Notes under the pieces: generated by a model | Told to the model about the DNA's origin: nothing | The model's input: only the letters and a program-made list of their open reading frames with translations | Databases searched by the model: none | Translations under genes and position numbers: made by a program | IMG/VR virus record: IMGVR_UViG_3300047489_000122 | Location: 1-35,818 of that record | Length of the DNA: 35,818 nt | Source of the DNA: a virus | Reading direction: 5' to 3' (one strand) | Shown: positions 3,307 to 30,888 of the stretch, one piece after another | How the letters are laid out: the number at the start of each line of letters is the position of its first letter | Numbering within the stretch: position 1 is the stretch's first letter

Positions 3307-6300
3307 CGGCTGACCCTTTGCGTGACTGGTTTTGAGAAGAGACTGATTGCTTGTAGTTCTAATGGTTCACCGGCGACCTTGTGGTCAAGGATGGGCTGAA
3401 TAAAGGTGCCTATGAATACTTCACGAGGAACGTAGGTTCGCAAGATAACCGCAGGCTGTGTCGTGTAGACCCGTTGAATAGATGCCTCGCCACCCCAAGG
3501 GAAGTTGCCCCATTCCAACTCGCCCCACCCGCCGAAGCTTGGCGCGTCGCCGGCTGTCCCCACCTTATAATTCCATTGCTGCTTTGTTGATGACGTTACA
3601 CTATCTGAAGAGAAGTCTAGAGAAATATTGCTACAACTTTGAAAATTCCTAAATGAACATTGAAACTCAGAGAATTGCTTCAACATGCCGCTTTGACCCA
3701 TGACCAACGGGCTAAACTTTACCAACGTCCTGTAAGCCTGATTTACGAACGCAAGGCTAGAAGATGTTGCTTTGTATGCGCTTTGTAACGTCGCGATGTA
3801 TGCCTGTGTTGAGTATTTGATGACCGATTCTATTTTGTAAAGTCGACCCTCACACACAATCGCATCGCCGGCACTTGGGGTAAACAGACCAACGGAATCA
3901 ATTGTTACCATAAGGTTAGATTGTTTTTTATCCGTGACCACCACCTGATCAGTTGTCGAACCCGTAGCCGCATTTGTCGCAAGCACCGAAAACGTCGTCG
4001 CGTTGATAAACGTGACTGATCTGTAGCCAAGTAGGTCTGTTGGGCTAGTAAAGCTTGCTGCAATTCCTGCACTGAGTTCCTCTATTGTGATGGCATCGCC
4101 TGTAATTAGGCCGTGTGGTTGCGCTGTCACAATAGTAACTGTCTGATTACCGTTTGCCACTGTTGCCGTCAGACTTGCCTCGCTGATGTATGGCGCAACA
4201 TACAGGTCACCGTTTGCACCTGCGACAGCCAAACTGCTGGCAGTGAACGTAAACTCTGTGTCTGATACGATTGAAACGGTACGCAGGCCAACCAAGTCCC
4301 CCGCCCCACCGGCAAACGCAGCGGTTAGAGTGCTTGACGGCCTGCTTACTGTTATTAATTGCCCCTGCAACAATCCATGATTGACAAGTGTCGTCATCGT
4401 AACAACATCTGATCCGATGTTAGCCAACACACTGCCGATCATCGCTTTTACAACTGGCGCGCAGTATTCTTGCCCTGAATAGTCAATCAGATTCTGTTCT
4501 TTGCGTTCTTTGACGATCTTGTTCTGCGCAAGCGTAGGAATAAAATACAACTTGTCATCTGAGGGCCGCAGCAAACCATTGAAAAACACCTTGTTCGCGC
4601 CGGTCCAGCTTGTCCACGCTTCTGTCAGGTAGTTGTAGCAGTAGGTCACGTCTGCCACCGCCGACAGTGTATTAGGCCGTTTAGCTGACAATAAATAAAG
4701 GCGTTCTGATTCGTAACCAACGGCTGACGTGTTGTTTTCCAAGTCTTGGCCGAGAATGGCGGTCAAAAGAGGTTCAATGATACGCGAAACGATGCGTACA
4801 GCACTGTCCGTAATCTGCACTACGCCTTGATTGCTAAGGCAGTACACGGAGTTGTTTAGAACAGCCACTGAATCCGTTGCCTTTACAAAAACCGTATTGT
4901 CCAACGCTGTAACGGTGAAGTTCGATGCGCTGTCACCGTTGAGGCGATAGATACCGTCGTCTTTTAGAATGATCAGCGAGTCGCGGAGTGCTGCAACACG
5001 CAGAATGGGCGATGCACGGCTTCCCACGTCGCGAATATTGAACAGCGGCACCGCTTCAGGTTCATTTATCTTTGAAATGTATAATCTGTTAGGCCCGATG
5101 TCGGATTCTGACTGCAATGACGTGCCAGACGCAGGAATTATCGGTTCAAACGCCTGTCCGAGTGCCGATGCCGCGTTGGTGGTAAGGCTGAATGCTGCTT
5201 GATCAAGGTTTTTGGCTAGCAGAGTGATAGCACCTGGCGGTTGAGTCACTTCAGACGTGTACTGTGCATAGACAATTGACGTTGCGTTGCGGTTGAACGC
5301 CTTTATTAAATAGCTGGCAGTGTAATAAATGGCCTGCGAAACGGTTACAATTGGGCTTGCTGTCGTTATCACGCGTTTGACGATGCGCTGTCCTGTCGAC
5401 GTGCGTGTTCCTTCAAAAGTTATGCTGCCTGTAGCACCGGATGCCACAGTGAACGTAAACTGATTGGCTGTTGTGACCGTAATTTGGTACTCGCCGGCAG
5501 GAATACCGCCGACAGCGGACAAAATTCTGATGTAATCGTTGTTTTGAAAGCCATGCGCGGTGCGGTTTACAGTTGCCGTTGTGGTTACGACCGTCACTGC
5601 GTTTGTTACGGTTTCATTTCCGACAGGTGCGTTCGTCGCGTCACCGTAGAACCTATACGTTTCCGTCGTCACGCCGTCTGTCAAGCTTAAAGTGTTACCG
5701 TTGGCGATCAAACTCGGATCAACTGTCGTCAAACTCAGCAAGTGATACTGCACTGTATTGGCATAAAACGCATAACCTTTAAACACAGCAATATCTTCGG
5801 CACGAGGCGGCCTTGAGTTTGCCTGCAGGATGCCTTCCTGATTGCTGTTTGTGTACAGAAACGGCTGTCCGGCAAGCAAAAGGTCTGGCAAGTCGTCTGT
5901 GTAGGTCAAAAAGCCGTTGGAAACGTCTGTTGAGGTCAAGTTCTGTTCTGCGACAAGGCGAAAGTCGTCGAACGGTTCGCTTGTAGCACTGACAGACCCA
6001 GACGTTCTGTAGACTTGGTACAGATATTCCGTTGATGCGACCTCGTTCGGAATGCTGGCCGTGATGGTAGCTGTTGGGTTGTAACTATATTCGATCGTCG
6101 CGAGGAACGGACTAGGCGTTGTTCCTGCTGGAACTGTGTAAGCAAAGGTAAACGATACGCCAGGGATGACCGTCACTGTCGCAAACTGACTATTCGGTGC
6201 TACCGTAATGACTGGCGTTGTGACCGTTACAGGCGTGTATTGCACAATCGTGACAAATTCACCTGCCGTTGTGAACGGATGGCCGCTATCCACGACCGTC

Positions 6301-15986: not shown

Positions 15987-16727
15987 TCACCAAAGTTCCT
16001 CTGTTGGCTTTGTTTCTGCGATACGCTTTGACGCCATTTCAAAGTATTTGTCATCCATTTCAATGCCAATAAACTTCCTGCCAGTGTTCACACAAGCCAC
16101 ACCTGTGGAACCTGATCCCATGGTAAAGTCGAGAACAGTCTCGCCTTCATGCGTGTACGTTTTGATCAAGTATTCGAGAAGTGCGACTGGCTTTTGGGTT
16201 GGGTGATAATTTTCTTTTCGATTGGCGTTTGAAAATTGAATGATTGAACGAGGTTGATAAAATTCTAAACACCTTTCTTTCCCATCATGTTTAGACAAAT
16301 TTTCGCTGCCAGAATAACTTTGATGAGTTCGTTTGTATTTTCGGGTTGTTAATCTTCTTATTTTTTGTGGATAGTATTTGATCGTTTTTTTAGCAAAAAC
16401 ACTAACAGTTTCGTGCTGCTTCATAGGTCTAATTTTTGCAATTGCAAAACCTGTCGGCAACACTTTATCCCACACCCAATCATACCTGAACCGCTTGATT
16501 TGACTCATGCGCAAGGCACTAGAGAACGGTTCACTGCCAAACAACAAACACGCACCATTGGGCTTGAGAACACGCCAGATTTGTTCCCACATGGGTTCAA
16601 ATGGGATCACGTTGTCCCATTTGCAAGCTGTCGTGCCGTAAGGTGGATCTGTGAGAATCATATCCACTGATCCGTCTGGGATCTGTTTCATAAGTTCCAA
16701 GCAATCCCCATGCAGCAAAGTTTTCAT
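15987..16727 (-). CDS. Beta-class DNA methyltransferase (probably N6-adenine)
   Basis: A 246-residue amino-methyltransferase. The catalytic DPPY (27-30) comes first and the SAM-binding DFTMGSGSTG (200-209) near the C-terminus, the motif order of the beta class. HPTQKP (175-180) is the usual X-motif. DPPY favours adenine N6, though N4-cytosine cannot be excluded. No restriction enzyme gene is adjacent, so it is a solitary phage methylase, probably protecting phage DNA or marking it. The middle (about residues 95-175), where target recognition lies, is clearly more AT-rich than both flanks. The start overlaps the stop of the membrane protein upstream (ATGA). Confidence 0.93.
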   Translation of the reverse strand: MKTLLHGDCLELMKQIPDGSVDMILTDPPYGTTACKWDNVIPFEPMWEQIWRVLKPNGACLLFGSEPFSSALRMSQIKRFRYDWVWDKVLPTGFAIAKIRPMKQHETVSVFAKKTIKYYPQKIRRLTTRKYKRTHQSYSGSENLSKHDGKERCLEFYQPRSIIQFSNANRKENYHPTQKPVALLEYLIKTYTHEGETVLDFTMGSGSTGVACVNTGRKFIGIEMDDKYFEMASKRIAETKPTEELW

Positions 16728-22745: not shown

Positions 22746-23423
22746 ATGGAAAACACAAAAACTCTTGTAGGTTATCGCGTCTGTCTTGAGGCTGGCCACG
22801 GATACCACGATGACGGCGTGTATGATTCTGGTGCCAATAACAAAGGCATCCACGAACACATACTTAACGTCGCGCAGGTTGAACACGTTGCAAAGATTCT
22901 TGAAGCCAAAGGCTGTCAGGTGACAAAGGTCATCTGCACCAAGGGCAACGGCCTGTCCCTTGGACAGCGAGGCTTGCAGGCTGCAGGGCACCATTTGTTT
23001 ATTTCTCACCACCACAACGCCTTTAACGGCAAGGCGCAAGGAACTGAAGTCCTGATGCACCTTCAGGGCACAATGACAGACAAGCACTTTGCCGAAGGGC
23101 TATCAAAAACAATAGCTAACGCCTTGGGCTATGCAGACCGTGGTGCAAAGAAGCAAAGCTTAGGAGTGCTGAGAACCGTGCCGGAAAGCGTAAAGGTAGG
23201 CGTCTTGGTTGAATCGTACTTTATGGACAACAGTAGCCTTGATCCAGATGATCTTGAGGCGTTGTCACTGAAGGCTGCAGACGCAGAGGCCGCCTACATT
23301 GAGGCGTACCTGCTGGCCAACTGCAAACCTAACAAGGTTGTGATGGTAGAACCGAGGAAAGTAGACCTGCCGCCAGCAGAACCAAAGAAAGTTGAACTGC
23401 CCAAGTCGCCTTGGAAGCGTTGA
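22746..23423 (+). CDS. N-acetylmuramoyl-L-alanine amidase (endolysin)
   Basis: A 225-residue zinc amidase of the amidase_3 type that cuts the bond between muramic acid and the stem peptide. Zinc ligands and the catalytic Glu are visible: H18 in LEAGHGY, E37 in HEHILN, His in FISHHHNAFNG (88-90) and E156 in VLVESYFMDN. There is no signal peptide or transmembrane segment, so it should need a holin or other membrane lesion. The C-terminal 30 residues form a Pro/Lys/Glu-rich tail with repeats (RKVDLPPAEPKKVELPK) in place of a folded wall-binding domain. It lies apart from the membrane-protein cluster at 24.2-25.6 kb. Confidence 0.93.
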   Translation: MENTKTLVGYRVCLEAGHGYHDDGVYDSGANNKGIHEHILNVAQVEHVAKILEAKGCQVTKVICTKGNGLSLGQRGLQAAGHHLFISHHHNAFNGKAQGTEVLMHLQGTMTDKHFAEGLSKTIANALGYADRGAKKQSLGVLRTVPESVKVGVLVESYFMDNSSLDPDDLEALSLKAADAEAAYIEAYLLANCKPNKVVMVEPRKVDLPPAEPKKVELPKSPWKR

Positions 23424-23510: not shown

Positions 23511-24188
23511 GTGCATAGCGATATAGTCACAGTACAGCGCGACAATCAAGTTTTTGTTTCATCCCGTGAAGTAGCGGCGAAATTCGGCAAACTACACAGC
23601 AACGTAGTTAGAGACATCAAAAACCTGATTCATCAAAACAAAGATAATGCAGACGCAACAAAATTCTTTTTCCTCAATTTTGAGGAACAGCGGATATCAT
23701 TGGATAATTCTCCAAGACGTGGCCGTCCTCCAGAACCACACTATTTGATGACACGCGATGGTTTTGCGTTTCTTGCGATGGGATTCACAGGCCGCAAAGC
23801 GATTGAATGGAAAGTGCGATTTCTAGAAGCTTTCAAGTTGATGGAAAAAACCATTGTAGAACAGCTTCCGGCTTTGAAAGCACGCATATTAGAACTTGAG
23901 GCCGAATCATCCCGCAAAGCACTTCCAGGGCCACGAAAGGATCATGTCGCTGTGCCTGTCATGCAGGAAAATCTGTTCGGTCAAGTTGAGGCGATTAGCT
24001 ATGTGTTGCGTCACAAAGAAACGCTTGACGAACTTCAAAAGTCGCAGGCCCGCGCCCGTCAAATGCGGAAGATCCTCAAGGGCATGCAAGACAAGTTTGA
24101 TGCTTTGGTAGATCGTATTGATTTGCTAGAAGGAAACAAAAAAGCAAAGTTGATTCGCATGATCAAAGATGAACCAGAAAAAACTTAA
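23511..24188 (+). CDS. Rha-family phage regulatory protein
   Basis: A 225-residue protein. The N-terminal DNA-binding region matches Rha: VSSREVAAKFGKLHSNVVRD (16-35) and HYLMTRDGFAFLAMGFTG (77-94), followed by KAIEWKVRFLEAFKLME. The C-terminal half is helical and charged (LQKSQARARQMRKILKGMQD...). Rha proteins are known from lambdoid and other temperate phages and affect infection of particular host strains. I choose GTG at 23511 because AGGAG lies 7 bases before it and the protein then begins like its family; upstream ATGs at 23484 and 23505 lack a properly spaced site. Its stop overlaps the convergent stop of the next gene by three bases. Confidence 0.85.
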   Translation: MHSDIVTVQRDNQVFVSSREVAAKFGKLHSNVVRDIKNLIHQNKDNADATKFFFLNFEEQRISLDNSPRRGRPPEPHYLMTRDGFAFLAMGFTGRKAIEWKVRFLEAFKLMEKTIVEQLPALKARILELEAESSRKALPGPRKDHVAVPVMQENLFGQVEAISYVLRHKETLDELQKSQARARQMRKILKGMQDKFDALVDRIDLLEGNKKAKLIRMIKDEPEKT

Positions 24189-24694
24189 TTTGATGATGCG
24201 CTAACTTCAACCCAATGTTCCGCCAGCACGTTGCCTGCGTCATTTCGTACTGTCAGACGACGCTTGCCTGGCGTATTAAGCACCACAGCATATAGCACAT
24301 GGCCGCCGTCCACATCCTTTCCCATGTAGCCTAGCCGCCATTTGTCTGCCCACAGGTGCGTGTTGTAGGCAAACGGTGCAGTGTACCGCACTGTGAACGG
24401 ATGGCCTGCAGCAATCGCACGGTCTATAAGAATGCGAGGCGGTCGAGGCGTTGGCTTCGGTGTGGGTGTAGGAGTGGGTGTTGCTGTGGGGATAGGTAAA
24501 GGCGTGGCTGTTGGAACGGTAGGCTGTTTAGGCGTGTCCTCGTTCTCGCATCGGGACAGCATACCTAACACGACGCCAATAATTGTCGATAGTGTCACGG
24601 CGATTTGACGCCACTGGCCCACTGGCAACCATTTTACGATCGCCAGCAAGCCTGAAATAAACTCAAGTGCTTTTTTAAGCTTTGAGTGCTTCAT
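24185..24694 (-). CDS. Membrane-anchored protein with Pro/Thr linker and C-terminal domain
   Basis: A 169-residue protein. A short basic N-terminus leads to a transmembrane helix (about 31-47, IAVTLSTIIGVVLGMLS), then a TP-repeat linker (about 54-86, TPTPTPTPKPTPRPP), then a beta-rich domain (RILIDRAIAAGHPFTVRYTA ... NDAGNVLAEHWVEVS). The Cys at 49 is preceded by Arg, so this is not a lipobox. A periplasmic domain on a stiff stalk is predicted. It lies last in a cluster of small membrane genes, suggesting a lysis or envelope role (spanin-like or holin-linked). The ATG at 24694 is the first ATG of the frame. Confidence 0.6.
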   Translation of the reverse strand: MKHSKLKKALEFISGLLAIVKWLPVGQWRQIAVTLSTIIGVVLGMLSRCENEDTPKQPTVPTATPLPIPTATPTPTPTPKPTPRPPRILIDRAIAAGHPFTVRYTAPFAYNTHLWADKWRLGYMGKDVDGGHVLYAVVLNTPGKRRLTVRNDAGNVLAEHWVEVSASSN

Positions 24695-24935
24695 AGACTG
24701 CGCCAAGCAGTTCGAGTGCTTCAGAAGCTGCGATGTCTTTGAGTTCTGGCCCAACCTTGTCCAGACCTTTCACACCTTCAACCAACGCATTACGAAACTT
24801 TTCATCAGCAACCAGCTTGCTTCCGAGTGATACCGCGTCGCCAAGGTCAAGACCGTCTTTCGCAAGTTCTGCAATAGCCTTGCCAAGTACAACCAATGCC
24901 ACCAATGCCTCTTTGCTTTCTTTTACGTCTGTCAT
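24675..24935 (-). CDS. Small helical hypothetical protein of the lysis-like cluster
   Basis: It has 86 residues, helical and amphipathic (ESKEALVALVVLGKAIAELA, KDGLDLGDAVSLGSKLVADE, ASEALELLGAVYEALKA). Small proteins of this look are common in tailed phages but have no assigned function that I know. It is joined to the gene before by an ATGA overlap and overlaps the next start by 20 bases. Confidence 0.65.
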   Translation of the reverse strand: MTDVKESKEALVALVVLGKAIAELAKDGLDLGDAVSLGSKLVADEKFRNALVEGVKGLDKVGPELKDIAASEALELLGAVYEALKA

Positions 24936-25141
24936 TTCGATTCCCTTTCCAGTTGTTGGATACGTTTCTCATGCAAATCGATCAGTCTGTCTTGGTTCGT
25001 GACTTTTTCTACGATTACCGCCAGCTTTACAGACAAGTCTTGCAAGCCGACTTTTGTCTCTTTCATAAACTCAATGGCTTGTAAGAGGAAAAACGCGATA
25101 ATGCCGCGTATAACCCAATCTGTTATGCCTTTAAGATCCAT
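24932..25141 (-). CDS. Small membrane protein with coiled coil (holin- or spanin-like)
   Basis: A 69-residue protein with one transmembrane helix (about 9-26, WVIRGIIAFFLLQAIEF) followed by a charged coiled coil (VGLQDLSVKLAVIVEKVTNQ, DRLIDLHEKRIQQLERESK). This layout occurs in i-spanins and in some phage membrane proteins near holins. No second spanin lipoprotein is adjacent. It overlaps both neighbours, by 19 and 4 bases. Confidence 0.65.
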   Translation of the reverse strand: MDLKGITDWVIRGIIAFFLLQAIEFMKETKVGLQDLSVKLAVIVEKVTNQDRLIDLHEKRIQQLERESK

Positions 25142-25590
25142 AGTGCGATCCCCATTGCGACGCTAAGAGTTACTGAAAAAGTCACACCGTAAAGTGCGAA
25201 TCTTGCATATTCCCGCGCCGCTGCGAGGTTAGCGGTTTCAATGTTCTGTTTTGCTTCAAGACTGCTGAGTGCGCTTGCCAGACGTTCGATCTGGTTTGTG
25301 TTTAACTTACCACGGCTGAGAGAATCTTGAACATTGAAGTCATTGTGTTCTGTTGCCCATTTGACGTGCTTCTCTAGTTCATGGATTGCATCCCAAAGAG
25401 GCGAAAGGTCTGTCATGTTCTGGAAGGCGTCAAACGAGGCCGTAGGCACACGGATGACGAATTGATTAGTGTTTACCTTCTCCACCTCGCAACCTTCGCC
25501 TGTAAGGTCTATTTGAGGGTCACTTATTCCGGCGTGGTGATACGGAAACTGTTGGACGTCTTCTTTTGCGGGAATTTGGACGTGGGCCAT
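25123..25590 (-). CDS. Tail-anchored membrane protein of the lysis-like cluster
   Basis: Not recognised. It has 155 residues with no N-terminal signal, a beta-rich first part (EKVNTNQFVIRVPTASFDAF), a coiled region (residues 70-125, RLASALSSLEAKQNIETANL) and a C-terminal transmembrane helix (about 132-153, GVTFSVTLSVAMGIALWIL). A cytoplasmic domain held to the membrane by its C-terminus is predicted. AAAGGA lies 10 bases before the ATG. As the first gene of the leftward cluster after the divergent region at 25.6 kb, it may have its own promoter. Confidence 0.6.
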   Translation of the reverse strand: MAHVQIPAKEDVQQFPYHHAGISDPQIDLTGEGCEVEKVNTNQFVIRVPTASFDAFQNMTDLSPLWDAIHELEKHVKWATEHNDFNVQDSLSRGKLNTNQIERLASALSSLEAKQNIETANLAAAREYARFALYGVTFSVTLSVAMGIALWILKA

Positions 25591-25674: not shown

Positions 25675-25872
25675 ATGTGGCTAGACGAACTGAACGAAAA
25701 CGAAATTGCCGTCATGGAAACTAGCATCCGCGCAGCACTGGCAAACGACGAACTTACCGGTCAGACCAAGATCAATGCGCAACAGGTTCTCGGACAGATC
25801 GAAGATTACCTTTGGAGTAGCGTTTGCCGTGGTAGTCCAATTGATTCAGATCAACTCCAAACAAGCCGCTGA
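25675..25872 (+). CDS. Small hypothetical protein, antisense at its end to the lipoprotein gene
   Basis: Not recognised. It has 65 residues: MWLDELNENEIAVMETSIRA, then ALANDELTGQTKINAQQVLG, helical and acidic. A strong ribosome site (GGAGGG) lies before the ATG. Its last 101 bases lie antisense over the 3' end of the lipoprotein gene. It is the only plus-strand gene in the late region between the Rha gene and the circle seam. The start signal makes it likely real; the C-terminal residues (SPIDSDQLQTSR) may be unconstrained. Confidence 0.5.
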   Translation: MWLDELNENEIAVMETSIRAALANDELTGQTKINAQQVLGQIEDYLWSSVCRGSPIDSDQLQTSR

Positions 25873-26707
25873 GAAACAACCATTCCCAGCCTTGTGACCT
25901 TTGCCAATCATCGTCGGTAGTATCTCTCGCAATAGACCACTGTTCCTTGTGTTCAGGTTCATCTGGCCACAAAGCAAGTGCAAGCTGTGCGCAGGACTCG
26001 TCAGCACCTTCTACCACAAAGCAGAACCACGGATTGCCTGCCTGTCTCAAATAGGCGTTTCTTGCAGCTTCATAGGACACTCTGTCCTCAAAACCAGTCT
26101 TCCAGGCTATGTAAGCTGCCTCTGCGACCAAGTTTAGCTGATAGCCTGTTGGTACCGCGATTGATTGCATAAGTAACGTCTTGCCGAAGATCTGTCCGTT
26201 AAACCACATCGTAGGATCTCTTACAAAGCCAAGGTGCGCGTGTGTGAATCCCATGAGTGCATGTGTGACCGGCGTAAGGTTACAGCGTCCGTCTGTATCG
26301 TCCTGACAGATACGGCCTGTGTCTTTGATGTGGTTCTTGACCTCAAGCCATCCAAGATTTTTGGATAACTGCGCTGCCATGAAACCGAATAGCTGATCTC
26401 TTGAAGCGGTGTTGGATGTGTCACTGCGATTTGGTGCGCGGTAAAGCTGTCCGTTTTTGACTGAGGCTGACACACCTTCGCAGGCAGACTGAAAGTTTAT
26501 GCTGCAAAGCATGCCGAGTGTTGTAGCCATGCCGTCGCCGTCTTTGCAATTTTCTGCGGAAGGATGACCGTCACACCACGGAGTCCACAAGGCTGTTTCT
26601 GATGCTTTAAGTTTGATTGCTTTGAGTGTGTCTGGAGAGAGAGAAGGATCTCGCGGGTCAGAGAACCCGCAAGAGGAAAGAAAGAGGCAAACAGGCAATA
26701 GTCGCAT
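25772..26707 (-). CDS. Predicted outer-membrane lipoprotein of unknown function
   Basis: A 311-residue exported lipoprotein. The very short signal MRLLPVCLFLSSC has a lipobox LSSC with Cys13. The residue after the Cys is Gly, not Asp, which favours outer-membrane sorting in Gram-negative cells. The mature part has several Cys pairs and conserved-looking patches (ASRDQLFGFMAAQLSKNLGW, HALMGFTHAHLGFVRDPTMW, YIAWKTGFEDRVSYEAARNA). No family is recognised with certainty. GGAGG lies 5 bases before the ATG. It follows the exported fibre-like gene by 17 bases on the same strand, so the two are probably co-expressed late. Confidence 0.7.
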   Translation of the reverse strand: MRLLPVCLFLSSCGFSDPRDPSLSPDTLKAIKLKASETALWTPWCDGHPSAENCKDGDGMATTLGMLCSINFQSACEGVSASVKNGQLYRAPNRSDTSNTASRDQLFGFMAAQLSKNLGWLEVKNHIKDTGRICQDDTDGRCNLTPVTHALMGFTHAHLGFVRDPTMWFNGQIFGKTLLMQSIAVPTGYQLNLVAEAAYIAWKTGFEDRVSYEAARNAYLRQAGNPWFCFVVEGADESCAQLALALWPDEPEHKEQWSIARDTTDDDWQRSQGWEWLFLSGLFGVDLNQLDYHGKRYSKGNLRSVREPVAH

Positions 26708-26724: not shown

Positions 26725-28809
26725 TTAGTTGATCATAAATCCAGATATTTCATAACTAAATGAATAACTGGATGATGTCGGTGCAAATGTTTTACCTGTC
26801 GGATATAACGTCGTGGCTGTCGTTATTTTGAAATAACCGCTTGATTTGCATTGAACGGCTTCAGAGGTATTTCCTGCTGCAATTATTTGTGTAACAGACG
26901 GCTGTCCGGTTGCATCGTTTATCGGTGAACCATTTACTGAAGTCGTAAAGCCACATGCAATTTTTGTTGGTGCAACGGCTCCGACATTGTAGGTCATCAT
27001 CATAAAATAATATCCAGGTTGCAACGTAATGCCTGTTCCTGTTTTATCGACGCCTTGAGATTGTCCCGTATAGGCTGTTCCAATATTGGAAATTATCGAT
27101 CCTTGGTACCCAGTCGCAATAGCATCACCCGTTGCTGCCGCCTTCACCGGGCCTTGAACGTACAGCGCGGAGTTTGAAGGTTGGTCAAGTGGAGTTATTG
27201 TGAATGAAATGATGTTTGCATCGGTATTTCCAGCTGCTGATGATTGTGCGCGACACGATCCGTTGTTACTCGCGTTTGTGTCAACTGTTTTACTGGCTTC
27301 TAATCTAAAATTGCGTGTTGCAACAGAAGTGTTTGTGTAAATACCTTGGAAACTCAAAAACGCATTAGTTGTATTTGTACTTGCCGTTGGTCTTGCAGCT
27401 TGGTTTACTTGTTCTGCAACTGTTGTCCTTAATGTTCCAGATGAATCTGTTTCAGCAATTCTGAATGTGCAAACGGTTACGTCGTCTACCGTTGTACCTG
27501 GTTGGGCAAGCATGTAACCGCTAATTTCTAGTTTATAGGAACCAACTGGCAGATTTGGAATACTAAACCCAAGATCGTTGCCGCTGTTTGTAGTTGTGAC
27601 CGCCGCCTTGCCTTTTAACAATGTTGGCTGATTCCATGTTGCGTTATTAAAGCTTGAATAGCCGGTTACTTCTGCTGTTCCGGCAAACAAACCTTGTTGA
27701 GAATTGCGATACTCAACCGCACCCCAAGTATTCTGCCGTTCAGGAGTCACGACAAGTTCTGAGGATGTTGGAAAGCGGTAGGCGATTAATTGAAATTGAT
27801 TGCCGACAGTAGTACTAGCGTTGTAAATATCGGCAGAGTTTGAAGGGGACGAGGAAAATCCTTGAACTTGAATAGTTGGCGAAGAAACCGTTGTATATTC
27901 TTTGGTAAAGACCAAAGTAAGTCCGTTATAATAAGTACCAGCTAAGTTAGTATATTGAAATACTAATCCTGAAAAATTAGAACCATCTCCTAATCGATAA
28001 CCAACCGAGTCATTAACGGTACCAGCTTTGATCGCAGTAAAATGCGCTATAAACATATACTTTCCGGGTTTTAAATTATTAAAAGTAGCGCCCGGAATTT
28101 TACCCGCGGTAGTCGTAGCTGATCCCGTTACTGTTCCAGTGTTGCAATCCGCATCAGCGGAAAAGTTGGTTACCGTACTTGAATTAGTTGACCAATTACA
28201 ATTTGAAGCCGCAGACACAATATAACTTCCAGCCTCTTCCGCCTGACTTACGTTCGCCATGTTAGTCGCAAGTCCGACGTAGATGCCGCCGATTTCGTTC
28301 GTGCCTGTCAGTGATGCCGTAGCCTGCTGTACTCGCAAAGTCGTAGCCGCTGAAAGGTCGCCACATGGAAAGTTTATCGACGCAATGCGCGGATCTGTCG
28401 ATGCCGTAAGCGTAAGCTGTGCGACTGTGTTTGAACCTTGCCGGATTTGCACCGATGTACTGCCGACAGAAAAGCCACGGTAGCTAAACCTTGCTTCGCA
28501 GTTTTGATTCTTCATTCCCGCGTCAAATGTGCGTGTTGCCCAATCTGCATAGCCTGTTGACGTGCTTGTCGTGATATTAAACTCGGATGTTGCTACCAAT
28601 GGTGTTGTGGTGGAACGTGTGACTGTGGCAGAGGATGCGGTTACGTTTGCCACGTTCGTCTGCGCGTTGGGGTTCAGAACAAAGTTAGATTGTCCAAAGA
28701 CGTTGGAAACGTAGTTTCCTTGAAGAATGACTGGGTTTTGTGCGGTAGCCAATGGCACCGCCGCTGTTGTCAACAATGTTGTCCAAAAGGCTAGTTTCTT
28801 AAAATTCAT
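26725..28809 (-). CDS. Exported fibre/receptor-binding-like protein with Sec signal peptide
   Basis: A 694-residue protein. The N-terminus MNFKKLAFWTTLLTTAAVPL followed by ATAQ is a clear Sec signal with an A-T-A cleavage site after residue 23. The rest is Ser/Thr/Asn-rich beta structure of the kind found in phage fibre proteins: a first lectin-like domain (FGQSNFVLNPNAQTNV, SINFPCGDLSAATTLRV), later repeats (GSYIVSAASNCNW; NLPVGSYKLEISGYML; LQPGYYFMMMTY; SFSYEISGFMIN). Fibre proteins normally have no signal peptide, so export to the periplasm or surface is unexpected. GGAGG lies before the ATG at 28809; an earlier in-frame start would hide the signal. It sits between fibre genes and a lipoprotein gene. 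Confidence 0.7.
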   Translation of the reverse strand: MNFKKLAFWTTLLTTAAVPLATAQNPVILQGNYVSNVFGQSNFVLNPNAQTNVANVTASSATVTRSTTTPLVATSEFNITTSTSTGYADWATRTFDAGMKNQNCEARFSYRGFSVGSTSVQIRQGSNTVAQLTLTASTDPRIASINFPCGDLSAATTLRVQQATASLTGTNEIGGIYVGLATNMANVSQAEEAGSYIVSAASNCNWSTNSSTVTNFSADADCNTGTVTGSATTTAGKIPGATFNNLKPGKYMFIAHFTAIKAGTVNDSVGYRLGDGSNFSGLVFQYTNLAGTYYNGLTLVFTKEYTTVSSPTIQVQGFSSSPSNSADIYNASTTVGNQFQLIAYRFPTSSELVVTPERQNTWGAVEYRNSQQGLFAGTAEVTGYSSFNNATWNQPTLLKGKAAVTTTNSGNDLGFSIPNLPVGSYKLEISGYMLAQPGTTVDDVTVCTFRIAETDSSGTLRTTVAEQVNQAARPTASTNTTNAFLSFQGIYTNTSVATRNFRLEASKTVDTNASNNGSCRAQSSAAGNTDANIISFTITPLDQPSNSALYVQGPVKAAATGDAIATGYQGSIISNIGTAYTGQSQGVDKTGTGITLQPGYYFMMMTYNVGAVAPTKIACGFTTSVNGSPINDATGQPSVTQIIAAGNTSEAVQCKSSGYFKITTATTLYPTGKTFAPTSSSYSFSYEISGFMIN

Positions 28810-28820
28810 ATAACCTCCGA

Positions 28821-29507
28821 TTAAACGTAGCTTGCGATCATATTGCGAGAGATTTCTACCCAACGAGAAGTTGTGCTGTCATATTGTACCAAAAGCGTTG
28901 AATACTTCGATAAAACAACATCGCCGTTCAGAATCCAACCGTTTGCAGCATCGTTCTGTGCAATTGTCACGGTGTTAGTGCTGTCGTTTCCAATGAACAG
29001 CAAGGTCATGCCGTCCGTGCCGCCTGTGAGGGTTGTGGCCATGCTAACAGCCGCTGCGTTGCCTTGTACTTTGATGCGCTGGAATGGCTGTGTGCCGATG
29101 GTTGGAGTTCCGCCTGCCGACAAGCTTTGAACCAACGATGTTTTGAATCCGCCTGCAACACCACCGACAACCTGCCAAGCACCGCCTGTGAGAAGGTTTG
29201 CAGACCATTTGAGGTAAAGTGCCGCGCCATTCGGCAGGGCAATATCACCGCCTGTGCCTGTCACTATCTTGTTTCCATTAGAGGATGACGCAGAGTCGTT
29301 TGCGATTGTCAGGTCTGCGCCTGTGCTGTTGATTAAGGTAAGTTCATACCCTGAAATACCGTCTGCGAGGCCCGTCAGTGACGTTCCTGACGTTGCCCTT
29401 ACAAACGATACACCGCCAAGTGCCACGTTGTTACCTGCAGCAATTGCAGTACCTTCCCGTGTTACAAGTTCTTTGGTTGTCTGCAGACGTTCTGGAAAAA
29501 AAGCCAT
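28821..29507 (-). CDS. Fibre-type structural protein with internal duplication
   Basis: A 228-residue beta-rich protein with two similar halves: about 50-115 (GYELTLINSTGADLTIANDS ... GAWQVVGG) and about 163-225 (GMTLLFIGNDSTNTVTIAQN ... RWVEISR). Both end in a W-x-(V/I) strand. The same module appears once in the protein at 8681-9487, so these genes share a building block. GGAGG precedes the ATG. It lies between a repeat-rich fibre and the exported fibre-like gene, suggesting a fibre or adhesin-linked virion protein. Confidence 0.65.
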   Translation of the reverse strand: MAFFPERLQTTKELVTREGTAIAAGNNVALGGVSFVRATSGTSLTGLADGISGYELTLINSTGADLTIANDSASSSNGNKIVTGTGGDIALPNGAALYLKWSANLLTGGAWQVVGGVAGGFKTSLVQSLSAGGTPTIGTQPFQRIKVQGNAAAVSMATTLTGGTDGMTLLFIGNDSTNTVTIAQNDAANGWILNGDVVLSKYSTLLVQYDSTTSRWVEISRNMIASYV

Positions 29508-29517
29508 GTTTACCTCC

Positions 29518-30888
29518 TTACGCCCATGCCGTTGCCGACAACAGAACGCCTTCTTTAATGGTGATCAAAATTTTGTGTGTCCCGCCTAATCTTGATTTGA
29601 TTGTTATTACGCCAGTGTTGTTGCCCTTGGCGATGTAGAATCCCGTTCCGCTGTCGGCTTCCTGATACTTGTTTTCTTGGTCTGTCAGGATAGTAAGCAG
29701 GCCGTGCTTATAATACGCGCAAACTTCCATGCCTGCATGACCTTCTGCGTTAATGCCAAACTTAAAGCATTCGCCTTTTGTTGCATCAAAGGTCAGTGTC
29801 GTACTTTGCAGGTGGGTGACGTTGGCAAACGCGCCTGATGCCGGTTGCAGCATTGAAGTCACAACTGTCGTGTTGCTGTAAGCGATGGACGACACAATCG
29901 CGCCTGTCATTGTGCCGCCAGTTTTCAGCAAGTATGCAGTCAATGCCGTTGTGTTCACATCAAAGCTGAATGCGCCTGCAGCGTAGCTGATCGGTGCCGA
30001 TGCGCTGAACAGTGCGTGAATAGACGTGTTTTGCACCTGTGCGCGGATACCTACACTGCCAATCGCCTGCACGTCTAAGTCGATGCGTGTGTTGTTTGCA
30101 TCCGGAAGGTTGCCAGACAAGCGAATATCGCCACTGATTGTGCCGGTCGTGTAAGTAAGATTAATAGAATCCGTATCTTGCACAGCAAGTGCGCCTTGGA
30201 TGTCACTGTCCGCAATCTGCGCGCGCAAGCCAACAGTGCCAGTAGATTGAATATCAATCGGCACAATCTTGTAGCCGGCATCTGCAGCGTTATTTGACAA
30301 GCGAACGTCGCCTGTCATTGCGCCGCCTGAATACGTCAGGTCAATCGAATTGCTATCAGTGACAGACAACGCTGCTTGAATGGACGCATTACTGATTTGT
30401 GCCCGCAAGCCTGCGTTTGCGCCTGTTTCGACGTTTAGATCGACAAGCTGATAACCAACACTTGCCGCGGTCGGCGACAGCTTAAGGTCTGCGGAATATG
30501 CGCCAGACGTATACGTCAGATCCACGCTGTCGGTGTCTGTTGCGCTAAACAGTGCTTTGATGTCGGATTCTGCCACAACTGCCAGAAGGCCATGATTTGG
30601 TGCCGGCTGAATCGTAATCGTTGCTTTTATGCTGCCCACCGGTGCGCCGTCTGCCGAAATACGCACATTCGCGGTTAGAACGCCCGCTGTATCGTCTAAG
30701 TCAATACTGTCAGTGTCCGCGATGGTGCCGCCGCCGACCTGCTGCCACGTTCCGAGGGCAAGGTTGTAAGCATAGAAAGATCTGTCACTGAGTGAAAAGA
30801 CAACCCAGCCATCTGCAGCAATGTACGCCGATGTCGGTGGGCTTGGGACTATCGGTACCCCGTCTAAGGGAATGTAAAGGTGCGCCAT
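29518..30888 (-). CDS. Tail fibre with tandem 60-residue repeats
   Basis: A 456-residue fibre. The N-terminal 55 residues (LYIPLDGVPIVPSPPTSAYI..., WVVFSLSDRSFYAYNLALGT) should attach to the virion. Residues 57-296 are four tandem repeats of exactly 60 residues, with a partial fifth. LLKTGGTMTGAIVS (320-333) is the short motif typical of phage fibre trimers. The C-terminal part holds a beta module (YYKHGLLTILTDQ...) and a final 47-residue segment shared with the protein at 8681-9487. TGAGGTGA precedes the ATG. Host binding is the likely role. Confidence 0.8.
   Translation of the reverse strand: MAHLYIPLDGVPIVPSPPTSAYIAADGWVVFSLSDRSFYAYNLALGTWQQVGGGTIADTDSIDLDDTAGVLTANVRISADGAPVGSIKATITIQPAPNHGLLAVVAESDIKALFSATDTDSVDLTYTSGAYSADLKLSPTAASVGYQLVDLNVETGANAGLRAQISNASIQAALSVTDSNSIDLTYSGGAMTGDVRLSNNAADAGYKIVPIDIQSTGTVGLRAQIADSDIQGALAVQDTDSINLTYTTGTISGDIRLSGNLPDANNTRIDLDVQAIGSVGIRAQVQNTSIHALFSASAPISYAAGAFSFDVNTTALTAYLLKTGGTMTGAIVSSIAYSNTTVVTSMLQPASGAFANVTHLQSTTLTFDATKGECFKFGINAEGHAGMEVCAYYKHGLLTILTDQENKYQEADSGTGFYIAKGNNTGVITIKSRLGGTHKILITIKEGVLLSATAWA
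30001..30720 (-). repeat. Four tandem 180-bp coding repeats in the tail fibre gene
   Basis: They encode residues 57-116, 117-176, 177-236 and 237-296 of the fibre. The unit has the frame TDSIDLTY..G....D.RLS......G......D......GLRAQI..S.IQ.AL. The copies have diverged at the DNA level, so this is an old duplication and not a recent slippage. Copy number may vary between relatives. Confidence 0.85.

Follow-up and report, generated by a model that had tools for sequence, protein, structure and literature searches.

The 694-residue protein P0001, encoded at the end of the tail-fibre operon of a podovirus-like phage, is very probably exported by the infected cell and is likely to be an adhesin or lectin. 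It is best explained, tentatively, as an exported, disulphide-bonded, multi-lectin adhesin on the surface of the infected cell, possibly one that masks receptors, a reading based on a signal peptide, the disulphide pattern, the homology of its lectin tips and its place in a mobile cassette. What is new in P0001 is the combination of being phage-coded, Sec-exported, equipped with tandem lectin tips and mobile together with a lipobox-protein gene. The window, that is, the whole 35.8-kb IMG/VR record analysed, was recognised as podovirus-like from its portal, large terminase and internal-virion-type proteins. In its virion proteins it is closest to a phage of Silvanigrella aquatica (phylum Bdellovibrionota; major capsid protein 43-44% and portal 36% identical), and because of this resemblance of capsid and portal the host of the window phage is probably also a member of the Bdellovibrionota, for which almost no described tailed phages were found. 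The Silvanigrella phage record (L011; CP017838), which is partial and unannotated and also contains a duplicated stretch and masked bases, yielded no relative of the adhesin.

The gene occupies 26725..28809 on the minus strand, with its ATG at 28809 and its stop at 26725, and Ser, Thr and Asn comprise 33% of the residues of the product; the reading in the earlier note of a Ser/Thr/Asn-rich protein with its own ribosome site thus stands. That site, GGAGG (28814..28818, minus strand), was read from the sequence in the 11-nt gap behind the upstream gene, and AGGAGG occupies the equivalent place in the relatives L002, L003 and L004. This ribosome site and the starts of the relatives point to ATG 28809 as the start, rather than the longer TTG start at 28863. 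Seven viral homologues are present in IMG/VR, five of them, including the distant L005, with an intact start, and an artefact of frame, start codon or assembly was ruled out because independent contigs are concordant. Counts of promoters and terminators gave no excess over chance.

Residues 1-23 (28741..28809, minus strand) form a predicted Sec signal peptide, MNFKKLAFWTTLLTTAAVPLATA, with a basic start, a hydrophobic core and A-T-A preceding the predicted cut, after which the mature protein begins with Q. By a home-made score of signal strength, this N-terminus ranked first among 37 window proteins. The same score was reached by 36 of 20000 random N-termini of window composition, by 16 of 20000 with the composition of the mature protein and by 85 of 20000 shuffles of the first 40 residues. 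Each of the five homologues whose N-terminus is complete (L008, L002, L003, L004 and the distant L005) carries a signal; the L007 and L013 homologues are cut off at contig ends and were excluded from this count. The window and L002 have 41% identity in the signal and 87% in the adjoining domain, a pattern that fits a signal peptide constrained in its function only. The clean Sec signal proposed in the earlier note is therefore borne out by its rank and its conservation, and signal-less homologues, named there in advance as what would speak against it, were sought and not found among the IMG/VR viral homologues with an intact start. A scan with the internal-linker pattern likewise returned the same family only, with no signal-less member.

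The cysteines lend independent support to export, or to oxidative folding outside the cytoplasm. Seven family members were cut at their conserved linkers and the cysteines counted per segment, a count that includes the truncated N-segment of L013, in which both cysteines are kept, and omits the truncated N-segment of L007. An even number (0, 2 or 4, at differing places) was found in all 27 countable segments. As a comparison set, 36 further virion-type proteins from the same phages were counted: cysteine occurs in 23, with 12 odd and 11 even counts (Fisher p 7e-5 against the family segments, an indicative value only because the homologues are not independent). The distant L005 homologue is an exception, with one unpaired cysteine. 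Disulphide bonding of P0001 is well supported by this pattern.

The AlphaFold model of P0001, of middling confidence (pLDDT 57), displays four beta domains. The conserved N-domain (residues 24-190; 28240..28740, minus strand) is predicted to be a jelly roll resembling carbohydrate-binding modules (CBMs), with residues 46-183 matching CBM-type domains at a VIA-align Z of about 12, and contains Cys104/Cys149; its dN and dS between the window and the siphovirus L002 are 0.12 and 0.81 at 87% identity. Three variable domains follow on the same strand, separated by the conserved linkers RFPTSSELVVTPER (residues 345-358; 27736..27777), conserved in seven close family members, and PLDQPSNSALYVQGP (residues 540-554; 27148..27192), located by alignment. 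The first, D2 (residues 191-344; 27778..28239), carries the sole match of a phmmer search of whole P0001 against all PDB chains, namely Bd2734 (8okw; E 1.1e-11); for D2 the E value is 8.4e-13, and its Cys204/Cys222 align with two cysteines of Bd2734. The second, D3 (residues 359-539; 27193..27735; Cys447/Cys519), is TNF/C1q-like with the fold of the Bd2734 tip: VIA-align superimposed the region 359-541 on 8okw with Z 18.1 and an rmsd of 2.2 A over 149 of 152 residues, a score clearly higher than that of the next-best TNF-like lectins (Z about 12), and a profile of the D3 family found an 8okw chain at E 2.3e-11. Since phmmer and the D3 profile find the same PDB chain, the relationship with Bd2734 reaches beyond the model alone; judged by sequence and predicted fold, D2 and D3 are homologous to the Bd2734 tip. 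The last, the C-terminal beta domain D4 (residues 555-694; 26728..27147; Cys619/Cys654), was delimited by alignment, and its family profile had no sequence match in the PDB. The lectin-type folds, CBM-like in the N-domain and Bd2734-tip-like in D2 and D3, are well supported and favour a glycan- or receptor-binding role for P0001.

Searches of PHROG, Pfam (above cut-off) and NCBIfam with P0001 gave no match, and for two of its relatives Pfam C1q came up as a weak match (best E 1.4e-6). No relatives were found in annotated phages and plasmids or by a profile search of genome contigs, and the D3 stretch alone as query and the GKIPG motif pattern returned nothing further. A pattern search of genome contigs, which is not a real survey of bacterial homologues, gave one Aeromonas stretch that may be a chance match.

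Bd2734 of Bdellovibrio bacteriovorus is a mosaic adhesive trimer (MAT) on the surface of this predator (PDB 8okw; PMC10769870), and a mutant lacking it preys on E. coli with a slight delay (PMC10769870). The MAT superfamily is described as having a signal peptide, a conserved beta-rich N-domain of ~130 residues, reported to be without a PDB relative, and variable adhesive C-terminal domains (PMC10769870). P0001 has the same order of signal peptide, N-domain and variable adhesive domains, together with TNF-like tips that have aligned cysteine positions and probable disulphides (8okw; E 1.1e-11, Z 18.1). It differs in being phage-encoded, in presenting up to three variable blocks in tandem, and in that no S74 domain or beta-helix was recognised in it. 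Moreover, its beta-rich domain behind the signal matches CBMs (Z about 12), while the MAT N-domain could be compared by description only. P0001 is thus MAT-like in architecture and tip family, but is not filed as a MAT because the defining N-domain, known by description only, appears to differ. Phage receptor-binding fibres with C1q/TNF-like or carbohydrate-binding domains resemble P0001 in domain types, modular swapping and place in the fibre operon, but differ from it in that P0001 possesses a Sec signal and even cysteine numbers in all countable segments.

Upstream of P0001, on the same strand, lie a 456-residue gene (29518..30888), 57% identical in the sister phage, and directly before P0001 a 228-residue gene (28821..29507). 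The claim that P0001 lies among fibre genes holds in so far as both are fibre-like in composition and position, although neither matched any family. The 228-residue protein is 33-35% identical over 102 residues in G003-G005, and its C-terminal ~100 residues recur in a 478-residue gene of the siphoviruses; we take this shared part to resemble a common fibre motif. Downstream, 17 nt beyond the P0001 stop, begins the gene of a 311-residue predicted lipoprotein (25772..26707, minus strand) with a MRLLPVCLFLSSC lipobox (LSSC) and four cysteine pairs, of which both members of the pair 68/76 are absent in L002. This protein recurs at 65-82% identity immediately behind the adhesin in five further contigs, in phages with unrelated virions. 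It had no family match, and its model is all-helical at low confidence (pLDDT 43), so poor that a fold search is meaningless; the analysis lent no support to the idea of an (alpha/alpha) toroid glycan enzyme. Next in the operon, still on the minus strand, are a 155-residue protein (25123..25590) with a C-terminal transmembrane segment (hydrophobic at 135-153), found in G006 only (80%), and two proteins that travel with the cassette: one of 86 residues (24675..24935), 42-76% identical in six contigs with unlike virions, and one of 189 residues (24185..24754) with a single transmembrane segment and a Pro-rich stretch, 31-37% identical in siphovirus-type contigs and 73% in the sister. An Amidase_3 gene (22746-23423) on the strand opposite to the late operon has relatives of 36-38% in G001, G002 and G004.

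A partial precedent is offered by phage T5, in which the llp gene, a neighbour of the gene for the receptor-binding protein, codes for a disulphide-bonded lipoprotein of the periplasm that excludes superinfection (PMC9586334, PMC4728585). Likened by description, Llp and the Cor superinfection-exclusion lipoproteins share with the P0001 cassette phage export, disulphide bonding and a gene adjoining that of a receptor-binding protein, and the 25772-26707 protein shows, as read from its sequence, an LSSC lipobox and paired cysteines. They are, however, small periplasmic lipoproteins, compared to a 694-residue multi-lectin protein and a 311-residue helical lipobox protein here. The lipobox protein could be the anchor of P0001 or itself an exclusion factor.

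The adhesin cassette passes between phages whose virions are unrelated. In the whole-contig comparison with the sister phage G006, the capsid protein is 99% and the portal 98% identical, yet P0001 is only 44% identical. G001 and G003-G005 share with the window P0001 (37-50%), the lipobox protein (65-82%) and the 86- and 189-residue proteins, and no virion gene except the ~100-residue piece of the 228-residue fibre in G003-G005. The latter three have siphovirus-type tail genes (a tape measure was recognised in L003); G002, another podovirus type, carries the adhesin, the 86-residue protein and an amidase. D4 is 67% identical between L002 and L013 despite their differing virions. The N-domain does not follow tail type, being 87% identical to that of the siphovirus L002 and 69% to that of the sister podovirus with its 99% identical capsid. 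Such a distribution is unlike that of a dock on one tail type and indicates a host component or a co-moving partner instead; from these identities, the host envelope, and not any particular tail, is the probable docking site of the N-domain. An N6/N4 DNA methyltransferase gene (15987-16727) is absent from the sister and 67% identical in the siphovirus-type G004; on sequence grounds, it is another exchange between these phage types.

The proposed mechanism would have P0001, expressed late, exported through Sec and folded with disulphides in the periplasm, to work on the envelope of the infected cell and not as a cytoplasm-built part of the tail. Its CBM-like N-domain, perhaps with the co-encoded lipoprotein, would tether it to an envelope component common to the hosts of unrelated phages, and the variable TNF/C1q-like lectin domains would point away from the cell and bind up glycans or receptors at its surface, leaving infected cells and debris unable to adsorb the phage or its competitors. 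The phage appears to produce an adhesin of the kind that bacteria display, perhaps as a mask or new coat for the cell that it infects. Surface location, anchoring and receptor masking are inferred, masking by analogy with T5. That P0001 acts off the virion is somewhat favoured; masking or exclusion in particular is a more speculative suggestion, and the decoy and cell-cell attachment roles put forward in the earlier note are likewise candidates only. The llp gene of T5 is early, whereas P0001 lies in a late fibre operon, and no autotransporter or other element for export across the outer membrane was recognised, in an analysis not aimed specifically at such elements.

A conserved N-domain with swapped tips is also typical of evolving virion receptor-binding proteins, and P0001 may instead be a virion fibre that matures in the periplasm, where it would be exported, disulphide-bonded and trimerised before joining virions at lysis, possibly via the C-terminal part that the upstream fibre gene has in common with other phages. 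This alternative, considered unlikely, accords with the position of P0001 inside the tail-fibre operon, right after a fibre-like gene whose last ~100 residues recur in unrelated phages that also carry P0001. It is weakened by an N-domain that follows neither tail type nor phage kinship, and by the likeness of the shared C-terminal part to a common fibre motif; tailed phages are not known to us to export a tail fibre through Sec, and a literature search gave no precedent. An ordinary virion fibre of the cytoplasm, with a hydrophobic N-terminus that does not act as a signal, would suit the operon position and fibre-like beta composition. It is very improbable, however, because the signal persists in every intact-start homologue despite sequence divergence and every segment that could be counted in the seven close members has paired cysteines.

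An unlikely role off the virion is that of a host-modifying adhesin, a new MAT-like surface fibre altering attachment of the host to prey, surfaces or other cells. The homology of D2 and D3 to the tip of a predator surface fibre and the Silvanigrella phage as nearest virion relative fit such a role; against it, P0001 lies in a late operon ahead of the lysis region, so its synthesis probably falls just before lysis, the window has no recognised integrase, and the P0001 N-domain appears different from that of MATs (fold match against the statement in PMC10769870). Improbable, too, is an envelope or lysis helper, in which P0001 and the lipoprotein would act on peptidoglycan or the outer membrane with the transmembrane proteins and the amidase: the cassette does include transmembrane proteins near the Amidase_3 gene and partly co-moves with it, but hypervariable lectin tips are unexpected in a lysis factor, and the cassette proteins tested matched no lysis family. 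More general, and still rather doubtful, is the proposal of a mobile cassette in tailed phages of Bdellovibrionota whose lectin fibre, exported through Sec and matured in the periplasm, serves outside the cell, either joined to virions at lysis or remaining on the envelope, by means of the same tip domains with which the host phylum recognises its prey.

If the preferred reading of P0001 as a surface adhesin of the infected cell is true, phages also export receptor-binding domains as free adhesins, common to unrelated phages of one host group, and the prey-recognition fibres of predators (MATs) and phages are linked by common tip domains. P0001 would then be a testable, fast-evolving candidate for superinfection exclusion in a phylum with almost no described tailed phage found. 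A distant relative of P0001 is encoded in a phage with myovirus-type baseplate genes (L005:3014-4345), 28% identical over the N-domain and with a signal of its own; its gene again comes last among the tail genes, ahead of those for a transmembrane protein and a lipobox protein (4945-5406). The same phage contig encodes a 620-residue protein (L005:6353-8215) with many Cys-rich repeats of the type CxxxxxCNxxxGCSW.
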